From a virus, in the IMG/VR virus record IMGVR_UViG_3300000117_000100, positions 8,717 to 34,041 of that record: DNA of 25,325 nucleotides; one strand, 5' to 3'. The notes under the pieces were generated by a model. That model did no database searches. It was not told the origin of the DNA and saw nothing but the letters and a program-made list of their open reading frames with translations. The translations under genes were made by a program, and so were the position numbers. Within the stretch, counting starts at the first letter, position 1. Every line of letters begins with the position of its first letter. This document shows positions 1-9,301 of the stretch, piece by piece.

Positions 1-30
1 CTTATTACTATTCGTAAGTAATCTTTATAG

Positions 31-54
31 CCCCGCTTCGGCGGGGTTTTTTTT
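31..54 (+). terminator. Intrinsic terminator with cUUCGg loop
   Basis: A 6-bp GC-only stem, CCCCGC (31-36) with GCGGGG (41-46), closes a TTCG tetraloop and is followed by eight T (47-54). This is a textbook rho-independent terminator for + strand transcription. It probably ends a gene lying upstream of the window: in frame 1 there is a TAA at 19-21. The next start codon is at 67, so there is hardly room for a promoter between them. Confidence 0.9.
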
Positions 55-66
55 AAGGTTTTTAAT

Positions 67-186
67 ATGAAAGATAATTTTGTAGCAAAGAATGCTAACA
101 AGTTTAACAAATCTAAAGTATTTAAAGACCGCAAAAAAGCCTCAAAAAAAGTTAGAGGCCAGAAGCACAAAGATAAATCAGTTTAG
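67..186 (+). CDS. Small lysine-rich phage protein, 39 aa
   Basis: Seen: an ATG at 67 with AAGG at 55-58 opens a 39-residue frame ending in TAG at 184-186. The protein begins MKDNFVAKNANKFN and is extremely basic (about 14 Lys/Arg), with a KHKDKSV tail and no hydrophobic core segment. Known: from memory, short proteins with the pattern VAKN..KFN...D+KK...KHK occur in many marine phages and are annotated only as hypothetical. Inference: a nucleic-acid-binding mini-protein is plausible from the charge, but nothing proves it. It lies between a terminator (31-54) and the structured RNA starting near 195, so the transcript is a very short unit or depends on readthrough. Confidence 0.7.
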   Translation: MKDNFVAKNANKFNKSKVFKDRKKASKKVRGQKHKDKSV

Positions 187-194
187 CCCGTCTT

Positions 195-264
195 GGGTGG
201 GCATAGTTTGGTTGGCGCTATGCCATAAGATGGTAAGCTCTGCTTACAAGTCAACCACTCACCC
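195..264 (+). ncRNA. Pseudoknot-like structured RNA in the leader of the 288 gene
   Basis: Four helices can be drawn in this 70-nt non-coding stretch. GGGTG 195-199 pairs with CACCC 260-264 as an outer stem. GGCATAG 200-206 pairs with CTATGCC 218-224, leaving an 11-nt loop. GTAAGC 233-238 pairs with GCTTAC 242-247 around a TCT loop. The loop segment TGGTTG 209-214 pairs with CAACCA 252-257. The second and fourth helices form an H-type pseudoknot (2-nt first loop, 3-nt middle loop) with the third helix embedded in the long last loop. The Shine-Dalgarno of the next gene (GGAG, 277-280) lies 12 nt beyond. It is not a tRNA: there is no TTC T-loop and no anticodon stem. It could be a riboswitch-like regulator, an RNA stability element or a processing signal. 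I recognise no known class. Confidence 0.55.
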
Positions 265-287
265 TAAACTTTACTTGGAGATATATT

Positions 288-557
288 ATGCGTTTTCTAG
301 ACTCAGAAACTAACTCAGCTTTTGGTGCAACTTATCATGCTATTAACAACGGCACTCCTCCACAGCCATTAAATATTCGTGGTCGGCAGTCTGGTTGGAG
401 AGATCGGTTTGAAAAAATGCAAGCAATGGAATGGTTTGTTGTGCCTTATGCTGATCGATTTAAGACTCAGCAAGCGGCTTCAAGTTATCTTAGAGGACGA
501 TATAGTTTTTACAAGATCAACAAAGACGGTGATATGTGTCTGTTAAAACTTCGTTAA
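288..557 (+). CDS. Hypothetical phage protein, 89 aa
   Basis: The ATG at 288 has a strong site (TTGGAG ending at 280, spacing 7). The 89-residue product starts MRFLDSETNSAFGATYHAIN, is rich in aromatic and basic residues (WRDRFEKM, FYKINKDG) and has no signal peptide or membrane segment. I do not recognise a family. Its leader holds the pseudoknot-like RNA (195-264), so its expression is the most likely target of that structure. A strong terminator follows 16 nt after the stop, so 288-557 is effectively a single-gene unit. Confidence 0.75.
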   Translation: MRFLDSETNSAFGATYHAINNGTPPQPLNIRGRQSGWRDRFEKMQAMEWFVVPYADRFKTQQAASSYLRGRYSFYKINKDGDMCLLKLR

Positions 558-573
558 TCCGTGGGGGAACTTC

Positions 574-595
574 GGGGGCTTCGGCCCCCTTTTTT
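574..595 (+). terminator. Intrinsic terminator with cUUCGg loop
   Basis: GGGGGC (574-579), TTCG and GCCCCC (584-589) are followed by six T (590-595). The predicted hairpin is very stable. The Shine-Dalgarno of the next gene (GGAGGA, 600-605) starts five bases after the U-tract, leaving no space for a separate promoter. The downstream gene must be reached by readthrough, by processing, or from a promoter inside the preceding gene. Confidence 0.92.
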
Positions 596-609
596 ATTTG
601 GAGGATGTT

Positions 610-1011
610 ATGTTGTGGAAAAATGAATGTAACCACCCCATAGAAGATTATTTATTTACTATGGAAGTTGATGACCAGCAATGTGATGTATGGTATTTTA
701 GGCATAGTCTTGAGGAAAAGAATGAGTTTTGTCTGCGCTATGGTAATCAAGATCACGAGTATAGAAGTAGCTGGGACTGTAGTTTAATTGAACGTAGTAT
801 TTCTCGTCGCACTAAATATTTAGATAGTGTTCAAGCAGAGCGGCATCGTGACCAATTGATCGATCTTAAAAATAAATTACAGGAACTAGGTTATTGGGAT
901 ATTAGTTGGGATCTCACCCCTGAAGTTAGAGAATTACAGCGGGTTGTCAAGTATGATGATGCACCAGAAGATACTGGCAAAGATAATTGGCGGCTTGAAA
1001 GATTAAATTAG
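610..1011 (+). CDS. Hypothetical phage protein, 133 aa
   Basis: The start is the ATG at 610, because GGAGGA at 600-605 is the natural site for it. A longer version from TTG at 598 would place the Shine-Dalgarno inside the coding frame. The product (MLWKNECNHPIEDYLF onward) is acidic, Trp- and Tyr-rich and apparently soluble, with a likely helical segment around residues 68-90 (DSVQAERHRDQLIDLKNKL). No family is recognised. It is flanked by a terminator before and a long hairpin after, so it looks like another single-gene cassette in an accessory stretch. Confidence 0.72.
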   Translation: MLWKNECNHPIEDYLFTMEVDDQQCDVWYFRHSLEEKNEFCLRYGNQDHEYRSSWDCSLIERSISRRTKYLDSVQAERHRDQLIDLKNKLQELGYWDISWDLTPEVRELQRVVKYDDAPEDTGKDNWRLERLN

Positions 1012-1012
1012 A

Positions 1013-1080
1013 GTGGGCTTCTACGTCTTTAAAACCCCTTTACAGGGTAAAGGGTTTTAAAGACTTAAGAAGCCCCCCAC
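1013..1080. other. Long imperfect hairpin, possible bidirectional terminator
   Basis: Almost the whole gap between two genes folds on itself. GTGGGCTTCT (1013-1022) pairs with AGAAG and the following C-rich CCAC segment (1068-1080). Inside it, GTCTTTAAAACC plus CTTTAC (from 1025) pairs with GTAAAG plus GGTTTTAAAGAC (ending 1064), with one bulged C and an AGG apex. The apical 8-bp part, CCCTTTAC/GTAAAGGG, is followed by TTTT on either strand, so it could end transcription both ways. It could equally be an RNase III substrate. The next Shine-Dalgarno begins only about 7 nt later. Confidence 0.65.
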
Positions 1081-1096
1081 CGTGACGGAGGCTGAC

Positions 1097-1303
1097 ATGA
1101 AATTTCGTATGACGTACATGAATAAATTACACAGCGTCGATCTGCCGGTCACTGCTGAACAGTTTGATAACTGGCAAAAAAATAGAATGACTGCGGCAGA
1201 GGCCATGCCAAATCTTACTCAAACCCAACTTGATTTTTTGACGCATGGTATTTACCCAGATGATTCTTTCTTTGATTCTATTGAGGAACTGACTGATGTA
1301 TGA
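1097..1303 (+). CDS. Hypothetical phage protein, 68 aa
   Basis: The ATG at 1097 is chosen because CGGAGG at 1086-1091 lies five bases before it. A GTG at 1082 is in frame but sits ahead of that site. The 68-residue product (MKFRMTYMNKLHSVDLPVT onward) ends in an acidic tail, DDSFFDSIEELTDV, and has no recognised domain. It shares 8 nt with the next gene, whose ATG is at 1296, so the two are probably translationally coupled. A small partner of the glycosylase-like protein downstream is possible, but this is context only. Confidence 0.7.
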   Translation: MKFRMTYMNKLHSVDLPVTAEQFDNWQKNRMTAAEAMPNLTQTQLDFLTHGIYPDDSFFDSIEELTDV

Positions 1304-1910
1304 CACTCATGCCAAAGCCGTGCAATATTATTCTAAATTGTCAAGCGACAACCTTGCCGATGTTGTGTTGATGGTTGTATTGAGTATACAACAGCCGTGG
1401 TTTGCGGTTGGCGACCAGCTAAAAGATGTAAAACTAAACGGCATCAACTCCAGATTTATATGGGGCAACAAAGCCAAAACATATCGGTCACTCATGTCCC
1501 GCAAAGAATTTATTTATTCTCAGTATCTTGCAGTGCTTAATTCAAATAAATCTGATGATGACAGAGCGTTGTCGTTGATGAATGTATTTTTGCAGATTGA
1601 TGGACTAGGTATGGCAAAGGCTGGTTTTGTCTGCCAACTAACTGCGGGGCTTGTTGGTTGTATTGACATTCACAACCTTCGGATGTACAATATCCCGATG
1701 AAAGATTTAAAATTATCTAAGTCTATAAAGTCAAAAGCTATAAAGAATCGTCGTGTTATGAATTATATTTCTATATGTCACGACATCGGTACAGAAAAGT
1801 TATGGAACACTTGGTGTAATACTCTTGCTACCAAGTCTAAAAGATTTGAGGATGGCTTTCATGTATCCCAAGTACATTACAGCTATCTTCAAGATGCGGT
1901 AAACCTTTAA
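1296..1910 (+). CDS. Helix-hairpin-helix DNA glycosylase-like protein
   Basis: The 204-residue protein carries a segment at about 99-130 (FLQIDGLGMAKAGF, then GCIDIHNLRMYN). It lines up with the helix-hairpin-helix plus catalytic-Asp region of the endonuclease III/HhH-GPD superfamily (LPGVGRKTA, then VDTH). Asp124 corresponds to the conserved catalytic Asp, and Lys108 lies one residue from the position of the endonuclease III Lys. No C-terminal four-Cys iron-sulfur loop is present. Known: this fold serves base-excision glycosylases and also the predicted thymine-hypermodification pyrophosphorylases of phages. Inference: it acts on a base or a flipped nucleotide in DNA, either for repair or for modification. 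No hydroxymethylpyrimidine kinase is nearby, which weakens the modification reading. It overlaps the 1097 gene by 8 nt. Confidence 0.7.
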   Translation: MYDTHAKAVQYYSKLSSDNLADVVLMVVLSIQQPWFAVGDQLKDVKLNGINSRFIWGNKAKTYRSLMSRKEFIYSQYLAVLNSNKSDDDRALSLMNVFLQIDGLGMAKAGFVCQLTAGLVGCIDIHNLRMYNIPMKDLKLSKSIKSKAIKNRRVMNYISICHDIGTEKLWNTWCNTLATKSKRFEDGFHVSQVHYSYLQDAVNL

Positions 1911-3038: not shown

Positions 3039-3059
3039 GCGCCCTTCGGGGCGCTTTTT
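3039..3059 (+). terminator. Intrinsic terminator with cUUCGg loop
   Basis: GCGCCC (3039-3044), a TTCG loop and GGGCGC (3049-3054) are followed by five T (3055-3059). The U-tract is followed after a few bases by the Shine-Dalgarno of the next gene (TTGGAGAA, 3062-3069). As with the two upstream terminators, no promoter fits between them. It closes the 1097-3032 gene group. Confidence 0.9.
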
Positions 3060-6996: not shown

Positions 6997-7425
6997 ATGG
7001 CTCTTGTTGAAGGTGTTGCATATTGGGCATCCGTTACCACACCAAACACAACTTACACTCCGGTGTATACTGTGAATCTTGTGGTATCCGATGAGGTTGC
7101 AAATGATTTTAGATCTCGTGGCTTCACGGTAAAAGACATGGAAGAAGGCCCAGCACTTCTTATCAAGCGTAAAGTAAATGGACCCAACGGTATGGTGCGT
7201 CCAGCGCCAAAACTTTTGGATCAAAACAAACAGCCTCTGAGCGTTAGTGTCGGCAACGGCAGTAAGGTCAAGGTGCAGTACAAAGAGTGGGAGTCCACTT
7301 GGAACGGCACCCTGTACAAAGGCTTGGACTTTCAGGCAATGCAAGTTCTTGAGTTGGTGGAGTATGCCAGCCCAGACGGTGCGGAGTTTGATATTGTTGA
7401 CGGTGAAGATGGAGATGAACTTTAA
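6997..7425 (+). CDS. Single-stranded DNA-binding protein, gp2.5-like
   Basis: The ATG at 6997 has TAGGAGAT in front (6983-6990). The 142-residue product starts MALVEGVAYWASVTTPNTTY, is beta-rich, and ends in an acidic tail (FDIVDGEDGDEL). An OB-like beta core plus an acidic C-terminus is the layout of T7 gp2.5-type SSBs, where the tail contacts polymerase and helicase. The family is also common in marine podoviruses. Role: coats single-stranded DNA at the fork and coordinates the replisome. Its place one gene before primase-helicase and two before DNA polymerase supports this. Sequence similarity to gp2.5 itself is low, so the call rests on layout, tail and context. Confidence 0.72.
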   Translation: MALVEGVAYWASVTTPNTTYTPVYTVNLVVSDEVANDFRSRGFTVKDMEEGPALLIKRKVNGPNGMVRPAPKLLDQNKQPLSVSVGNGSKVKVQYKEWESTWNGTLYKGLDFQAMQVLELVEYASPDGAEFDIVDGEDGDEL

Positions 7426-7645: not shown

Positions 7646-9301
7646 ATGGGCGACTTTGTGGCCTATCAAAAACCTTGTCCAAATTGCGGGGGCAGTGATC
7701 CTGTCTCCGTAAATTCAAACGGTTCTGCAAAGTGTTTTAGTTGTGGAACCTTTTTCAAAGACTACGAATCTGCAATGGGAGGCAACGTGGCAGACTTCAA
7801 TAGCTTCAAAAGATCCAATGATAATACTCCCTTCACCAACAGCGTTTATCACGCACTCACCGACAGATCCATTTCTCTTGAAACTGCAAAGAAATTTGGT
7901 GTTCGTTCAGTCAAAGACGAGCAGGGTAATATTATTCAGCACCACTACCCTGCATACATTAACAATGAAGAAGTTGCTACGAAGGTTCGTAATGCAGACA
8001 AAACATTTACTTGGTCAGGCTCACCCAAAGGAACTGGCCTCTTTGGTCAGCAAGTGGCGCAGGCGGGTGGCAAATACATTACGGTCACTGAAGGTGAGTG
8101 TGATGCTATGGCGGCATACGAACTTCTGGGGAGTAAATGGCCGGTTGTATCTGTTAAGAATGGAGCGCAGGGCGCGGCAAGGGACGTTCAAGAAAACCTT
8201 GAGTTCCTTGAATCGTTTGATACGGTGGTTATTTCTTTCGACAACGACAAGCCCGGAAGAGAAGCCGCAAAGAAAGTGGCGCGTATCCTCAAGCCGGGGA
8301 AGGCTAAGATACTTACGCTCCCTACTGAGTTCAAAGACCCTAATGAAATGCTCAAGCTGGGCCACCACAAAGCTTACGTCACTGCGTGGTGGGCTTCAAA
8401 ACTTTACACGCCGTCTGGTATTTTAAACGTCAGTGAAGAACGTGAGAACTACAAGAAACGTGAGCGTAAAGAATCTATTCCATATCCTTGGGGTGGACTC
8501 AATGTAAAGCTTGACGGCTTGCGACAAGGAGAGTTGATTACTTTAACGGGCGGCACAGGCTTGGGTAAATCTAGTGTTACTCGTGAGCTTGAACACTGGC
8601 TCATCACCAATACCAACGACAAAGTAGGGGTCATTGCTCTTGAAGAGGATTGGCGTAGAACTGTTGATGGTATATTATCTATCGAAGCCAATGCCCGTTT
8701 ACATATTGATAGTGTTCGGGCTGAGTTCAGCGAAGAAGAGATCGACAACTTTTTCAATGTACTTTACGATGGCGAGAATAAAAACCGCGTCTTTGTTCAT
8801 GCCCATCTTGGGATGAACGATGTTGATAGTGTGTTTTCTAAACTGCGTTTCATGGCAATGGGCCTTGAGTGTAAGTGGATAGTTTTTGACCACTTGCATA
8901 TGCTCCTGTCGATGACAACGGATGGTGACGAACGCCGCAATATTGATTCAATTATGCACAACTTCAGAACGCTAGTTGAAGAGACAGGCGTAGGTCTAAT
9001 ACTTGTGTCACACCTTAGAAGGATTGATGGTAATCGTGGTCACGAGAATGGTATTGAGACAGGACTCAACCATCTACGTGGCTCACAAAGTATCGCTCAG
9101 TTGTCAGACTGCGTGATATCTTTGGAGCGTAATCAGCAATCAGAAGATCCGGTGGAGGCCAGTACCACACGAGTCCGTGTACTTAAATCTAGATACACTG
9201 GTGATGTAGGTCTAGCCACGCACTTGTTTTACGACAAGGATAGTGGTAGGCTCAGTGAAATAGCTATGGAAGTAGAAGAACAAGATGAGATTGAGTTATG
9301 A
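7646..9301 (+). CDS. Bifunctional primase-helicase, T7 gp4-like
   Basis: This 551-residue protein has the whole T7 gp4 domain order. A Cys4 zinc finger (C11, C14, C30, C33) reads the priming site. A Toprim-type primase core has E149-G150 (VTEGECDA) and D199-x-D201 (SFDNDKPG). A DnaB-type RecA helicase core has Walker A TGGTGLGKS (301-309), Walker B Asp415 (WIVFDHLHML), the H456 motif (VSHLRR) and a late LRGSQ segment (477-481). Roles: 5'-3' unwinding of the fork and synthesis of RNA primers. The length is close to the 566 residues of T7 gp4. It starts at the ATG at 7646, two bases after the previous stop, and ends in an ATGA overlap with the DNA polymerase. All catalytic residues are present. 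Confidence 0.96.
   Translation: MGDFVAYQKPCPNCGGSDPVSVNSNGSAKCFSCGTFFKDYESAMGGNVADFNSFKRSNDNTPFTNSVYHALTDRSISLETAKKFGVRSVKDEQGNIIQHHYPAYINNEEVATKVRNADKTFTWSGSPKGTGLFGQQVAQAGGKYITVTEGECDAMAAYELLGSKWPVVSVKNGAQGAARDVQENLEFLESFDTVVISFDNDKPGREAAKKVARILKPGKAKILTLPTEFKDPNEMLKLGHHKAYVTAWWASKLYTPSGILNVSEERENYKKRERKESIPYPWGGLNVKLDGLRQGELITLTGGTGLGKSSVTRELEHWLITNTNDKVGVIALEEDWRRTVDGILSIEANARLHIDSVRAEFSEEEIDNFFNVLYDGENKNRVFVHAHLGMNDVDSVFSKLRFMAMGLECKWIVFDHLHMLLSMTTDGDERRNIDSIMHNFRTLVEETGVGLILVSHLRRIDGNRGHENGIETGLNHLRGSQSIAQLSDCVISLERNQQSEDPVEASTTRVRVLKSRYTGDVGLATHLFYDKDSGRLSEIAMEVEEQDEIEL

Follow-up and report, generated by a model that had tools for sequence, protein, structure and literature searches.

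A near-invariant and probably pseudoknotted leader RNA ahead of a small basic protein gene in a clade of uncultured tailed phages

The window analyzed here (25,325 nt; positions 8717–34041 of the 35.4-kb virus record IMGVR_UViG_3300000117_000100) contains, ahead of the gene at position 288, a conserved element whose analysis supports a real, selected and probably pseudoknotted RNA. It is best read as a cis-acting leader RNA with a pseudoknot, new and restricted to one clade, which is undescribed as far as the libraries show and most likely sets the amount of the 89-aa protein made. Action in cis on the gene at 288 is considered probable. The genome is of the tailed phage type and the window encodes a primase-helicase, PolA, a Cas4-like exonuclease and ribonucleotide reductase; the closest named relatives of PolA belong to Pelagibacter phages (identity of at most 48%). 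A gp2.5-like single-stranded DNA-binding protein (SSB) gene was found at 6997–7425, away from the leader. The element itself sits in a rightward block of small genes, which would be early, judging from its position and gene types.

All four helices proposed in the first-pass annotation were found at their coordinates by direct reading of the sequence, as were the two short loops of 2 and 3 nt (207–208 and 215–217) and the 12-nt gap between the element and the Shine–Dalgarno sequence. The originally proposed core of helix P2 (TGGTTG 209–214/CAACCA 252–257) was lengthened by the pairs G215–U251 and C216–G250 to 8 bp (TGGTTGGC 209–216/GTCAACCA 250–257), which leaves a single nucleotide, G217, between it and the 3' half of P1. 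The start of the conserved unit was placed at C192, with an invariant CTT. An alternative pairing of GGG 195–197 with CCC 187–189 is possible but involves a 5' segment without conservation. From this arrangement, we infer an H-type pseudoknot made by P1 and P2, which is closed by P0 and carries P3 as a peripheral arm (Table 1); simultaneous formation of P1 and P2 is judged quite likely. Two further pairings were rejected, namely an outer helix AGTTTA/TAAACT, lost in several homologs, and masking of the Shine–Dalgarno sequence by the loop of P3, noticed on visual inspection in leaders of the type of loci L105 and L137 only.

Table 1. Features of the leader element and its surroundings (window coordinates)
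Feature	Position	Strand	Observation
Whole conserved element (leader RNA module)	192–264	+	5/49 core columns vary; covariance-model match 192–266
Unpaired CUU, 5' edge	192–194	+	0/3 columns variable, 18 sequences
P0 5' strand GGGUG, partner 260–264	195–199	+	5 pairs invariant, 18 sequences
P1 5' strand GGCAUAG, partner 218–224	200–206	+	7 pairs kept, 18/18
Loop L1, UU	207–208	+	Invariant
P2 (pseudoknot) 5' strand UGGUUGGC, partner 250–257	209–216	+	8 pairs kept, 18/18
Loop L2, single G	217	+	Invariant
P1 3' strand CUAUGCC	218–224	+	Homolog pair table
Loop L3, A-rich 5' part, consensus nnUAARAUG	225–232	+	4/9 columns variable
P3 hairpin within L3, GTAAGC 233–238/GCTTAC 242–247	233–247	+	Covarying pair, wobbles, variable loop
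L3 3' part, AA	248–249	+	Invariant
P2 3' strand GUCAACCA	250–257	+	Homolog pair table
P0 3' strand CACCC	260–264	+	Invariant
AU-rich linker with Shine–Dalgarno GGAG (277–280), outside the fold	265–287	+	Sequence; linker start variable
89-aa basic protein gene	288–557	+	Always 3' of the element; no PHROGs, Pfam or NCBIfam family
Intrinsic terminator directly 3' of the gene	574–595	+	Also in the element-bearing relatives checked

Homologs were gathered with the downstream protein, which led to 21 IMG/VR loci; searches with a protein profile and with a pattern at the DNA level added further loci. The resulting set comprised 18 distinct versions of the element, plus truncated ones. Homologous leaders that had lost helices were looked for as evidence against the proposed fold, and it was found that all 18 versions retain the four helices, with all 26 pairs kept (468/468 cells). 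Pair 200/224 of P1 occurs among homologs as a G-C, G-U or A-U series and pair 237/243 of P3 as G-C or A-U, with both sides changed. Three further pairs carry wobbles (two in P3 and one, G-C to G-U, in P2), and the other 21 pairs never vary. Wherever a pair is not Watson–Crick, it is a wobble allowed on the + strand. The length of P3 ranges from approximately 15 to 39 nt, some homologs having an extra distal stem, and the P2 loop is unchanged in 81 copies across loci (redundant set). Thus, the covariation hoped for in four helices was seen as one two-sided change each in P1 and P3, while P0 and P2 were practically invariant; it modestly backs P1 and P3 and says nothing about P0 and P2. Since P0 and P2 do not vary, the pseudoknot is unproven by covariation, and the case for P2 is built on its conservation, complementarity and energy. 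The covariation score exceeded those of all 500 shuffles, but the sequences are closely related and this statistic is therefore weak. Scans of viral contigs for homologs with altered helices, which left P1, P2 or the 5' half free, revealed no further complete members of the family.

Some incomplete or unusual versions were also noted. Positions 1–50 of locus L143 (the same as L183 and L049) contain a truncated, divergent element with TTAGC instead of TATGC in the 3' strand of P1 and A as the first base of P3; the contig of L143/L183 stops ahead of the partner strand, so P1 covariation is unreadable there. Adjacent pieces of the contig IMGVR_UViG_3300037963_001668 (L124 and L180) carry two different versions of the element, probably because two strains were joined during assembly.

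In 1500 dinucleotide shuffles, the complete arrangement of closing helix, H-type pseudoknot and embedded hairpin was searched for and scored. The score of −46.5 kcal/mol was reached in 0/1500 shuffles (mean −11.1, sd 10.4, best −36.5). Pseudoknot-free folding was unexceptional, with z-scores of −0.43 (180–300) and −1.86 (187–270), and for most sequences the best nested fold contained P2 paired without P1, with a preference for an extended P0 together with P2. When the pseudoknot energy was taken as the P0 + P1 + P3 fold plus the P2 duplex, with an initiation cost of 4.1 kcal/mol, the sums ranged from −28.5 to −36.6 kcal/mol vs. −21.6 to −32.5 kcal/mol for the best nested folds, and the sum was the lower of the two for all 15 distinct core sequences. 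A harsher pseudoknot penalty makes the two folds approximately equal, so energy alone cannot decide between them.

Analysis of the homologs pointed to selection on the core. Variable columns amounted to 12/12 in the 5' flank, 5/49 in the core, 28/28 in the P3 loop and 9/12 in the 3' flank; the core differed from its immediate flanks (21/24) with P = 9e-11, and the edges of conservation were sharp at 192 and 264. In the far clade, only 9/23 to 14/25 of the four-fold codon positions of the adjacent gene match those of the window, whereas the core differs from that of the window at 0–1 of 45 positions. A core that stays nearly unchanged while the genes have drifted far apart argues for a real control element. 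The region further upstream is 91–96% identical between the clades, so exchange could explain part of this identity, but the sequence immediately adjoining the core on either side is variable, which indicates that the core itself is constrained. A coding role of the ORF spanning the element (92–313) was rejected, since homolog indels inside the element are not all multiples of three.

In the records searched, the element occurs as a single copy per genome, and the gene directly after it is always the one for the basic protein of 85–89 aa. Four arrangements were found upstream of it, namely a 93-aa gene directly, a DUF7230 ORF, a membrane-peptide ORF (a label assigned by reading of the ORF) or both ORFs. 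The element, gene and terminator move as one cassette, upstream of which genes are gained and lost; the linkage of element and gene could also be plain synteny inside one clade. The DUF7230 ORF (window 67–186) encodes a very basic protein of 39 aa (pI 10.7) and comes and goes with its terminator among relatives. The sequence ATTACTATCCGTAAGTAAT was considered as an upstream phage promoter and rejected, since the 93-aa gene upstream ends in this sequence. The element was absent from loci L164–L170, whose homologous protein is 57% identical, and from larger relatives with a primase identity of 90–92%. No match was found in GenBank phages, only chance matches were found in GTDB species genomes, and Rfam gave no plausible match at the element, in line with the first-pass annotation, which knew of no class with these sequences. 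In L164–L170, the slot of the element is filled by a long hairpin of high stability (−40 kcal/mol, z −4.6); the leader of L164 (2890–3003) consists of a long hairpin ACTTTAAAGCCC...GGGCTTTAAAG and a second GCGGCGGGGC hairpin ahead of the gene.

The 89-aa protein has a pI of 9.8 and contains invariant RGR and WR residues. Modeling using AlphaFold led to a model of moderate confidence (pLDDT of about 80 over residues 41–89) with a helix–strand–helix–strand–strand order. The best neighbours in a Foldseek search were small, uncharacterised proteins of phages, all of them weak matches with no E-value under 0.001, and no RNA-binding or SSB family was recognised in PHROGs, Pfam or NCBIfam.

The rightward block also contains strong intrinsic terminators of the UUCG type (window 29–48, 574–595 and 3039–3054; L207 7635–7661). 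No clear promoter was found between the terminators in window 1–1400, and no sigma-70-like promoter was found on the + strand between the element and the next gene. Terminators also occur in related genomes without the element, e.g., L071 and L069, and in L164, L165 and L170, which lack it, no terminator was found directly behind the homologous gene. In addition, a long intergenic hairpin TTTTAAAACCCC...GGGGTTTTAAAA recurs in the gaps of the small early genes, always on the + strand and with several copies per genome (window 1015–1075; L207 7065, 7954 and 8360; L137 601, 1088 and 2771; L105 44, 340, 1709 and 4185). These hairpins are very stable (z −4 to −6.6), their inner stem covaries between copies (TTTACAGGGTAAA or CTCACGTAGTGAG), and they are possibly RNase III-type processing sites.

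Several mechanisms may be considered. In the favoured one, a protein would bind the rigid core, the most likely candidate being the small basic product of the 89-aa gene itself, and the bound protein would spread to or block the adjacent AU-rich ribosome-binding region and so tune translation, as an autogenous operator in the manner of the phage T4 gene 32 leader. The rigidity of the core sequence points to base-specific recognition over a mere barrier, and recognition by a protein, with the 89-aa product as the first candidate, is put forward tentatively. That the element is an autogenous translational operator of this gene is likewise suggested with reserve: the free Shine–Dalgarno sequence, the basic product and the gene 32-like layout speak for it, while the existence of homologous proteins of 57% identity without the element and the lack of a recognised RNA-binding family speak against it. 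The strongest rival, though somewhat doubtful, is an element stabilising or processing the mRNA, in which the fold shields the 5' side from nucleases or marks a cut between early genes, because a long stable hairpin occupies the same slot in the L164–L170 relatives. RNase III sites are dispersed between early genes in T7-like phages, and here, too, similar hairpins are scattered between early genes of a block punctuated by terminators; however, a mere barrier would not require three helices to be near-invariant in both of their strands. Processive antitermination of the HK022 put type, with the nascent fold binding RNA polymerase and letting it read past downstream terminators, was retained as an unlikely explanation. 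The size of about 70 nt, the rigid sequence, the location in the early block and the failure to find a sigma-70-like promoter before the next gene fit it, as does a gene-end terminator that accompanies the element in the genomes checked and was not found in its absence in L164, L165 and L170. It is weakened by terminators upstream of the element (window 29–48; L207 7635) and in the element-less L071 and L069, and by put itself being two stem-loops near early promoters (PMC9378689).

A new riboswitch, in which the gene would be controlled through binding of a small molecule to the pseudoknot, would share the preQ1-II strand order, conserved unpaired nucleotides (CUU, UU, G, AARAUG and AA) and a position before a ribosome site. 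Helix sequences of ligand riboswitches usually drift and those of the element hardly do, so the metabolite sensor offered in the first-pass annotation is not favoured; with the Shine–Dalgarno sequence and any terminator outside the fold, a narrow phage clade, no metabolic gene and no Rfam match, this reading is quite improbable. A DNA-level element (a protein site or recombination junction with palindromes that are merely RNA-like) would account for the high identity of both strands and for the junction just upstream being a site of gene gain and loss. It is very improbable, since a G-U on the + strand would be A-C on the opposite strand, the hairpin stem is kept despite its changes in length and each genome has one copy. 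More generally, a new functional RNA class, i.e., a rigid pseudoknot acting directly on RNA polymerase, the ribosome or a nuclease, or sensing a ligand, instead of serving as an ordinary operator of its gene, is rather unlikely. Contact with a host machine, if it occurs, would make the element a small natural tool for the control of translation, decay or termination. Very few structured cis-acting RNAs have been catalogued in uncultured phages, and this one is compact, sharply bounded, near-invariant and absent from Rfam; since it has a single small partner gene, a single reporter together with a single purified protein would suffice to test its function.

Among known RNAs, the element was compared with the preQ1-II riboswitch (RF01054), whose general layout had been pointed out in the first-pass annotation. 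The resemblance is one of topology only, covering the strand order, a pseudoknot (probable in the element), the hairpin embedded in the last loop and the location ahead of a gene. However, the pseudoknot helix of preQ1-II contains the Shine–Dalgarno sequence (PMC11625349), whereas here GGAG lies outside 192–264, 12 nt away, and a phage early gene is found downstream instead of queT. The RF01054 covariance model gave no match in the window at the gathering score and none at E up to 10 for 1–600. Assignment to preQ1-II or another Rfam class was rejected. An HDV-like ribozyme, with a similar strand order, was rejected by inspection only, as there is no hairpin inside the loop. HK022 putRNA is likewise a phage early-region RNA of about 70 nt with terminators downstream, but its two stem-loops near early promoters (PMC9378689) differ from a four-helix, probably pseudoknotted layout inside an operon that is linked to one gene and has terminators upstream as well. 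In the operator of T4 gene 32, a pseudoknot precedes a ribosome-site segment with less structure (PMC535899). The element resembles it as a phage early-gene leader with a probable pseudoknot, predicted here from sequence and energies, 5' of an AU-rich ribosome-site segment and with a small protein of nucleic-acid type encoded downstream. The T4 pseudoknot is about 28 nt long and the operator has diverged between T4 and RB69 (PMC535899), whereas the element spans about 73 nt, with a closing helix, an embedded hairpin and a near-fixed sequence. In addition, its downstream protein matches no SSB family tested and the phage has its own SSB gene elsewhere. The element may still act like the T4 gene 32 operator, with another protein.
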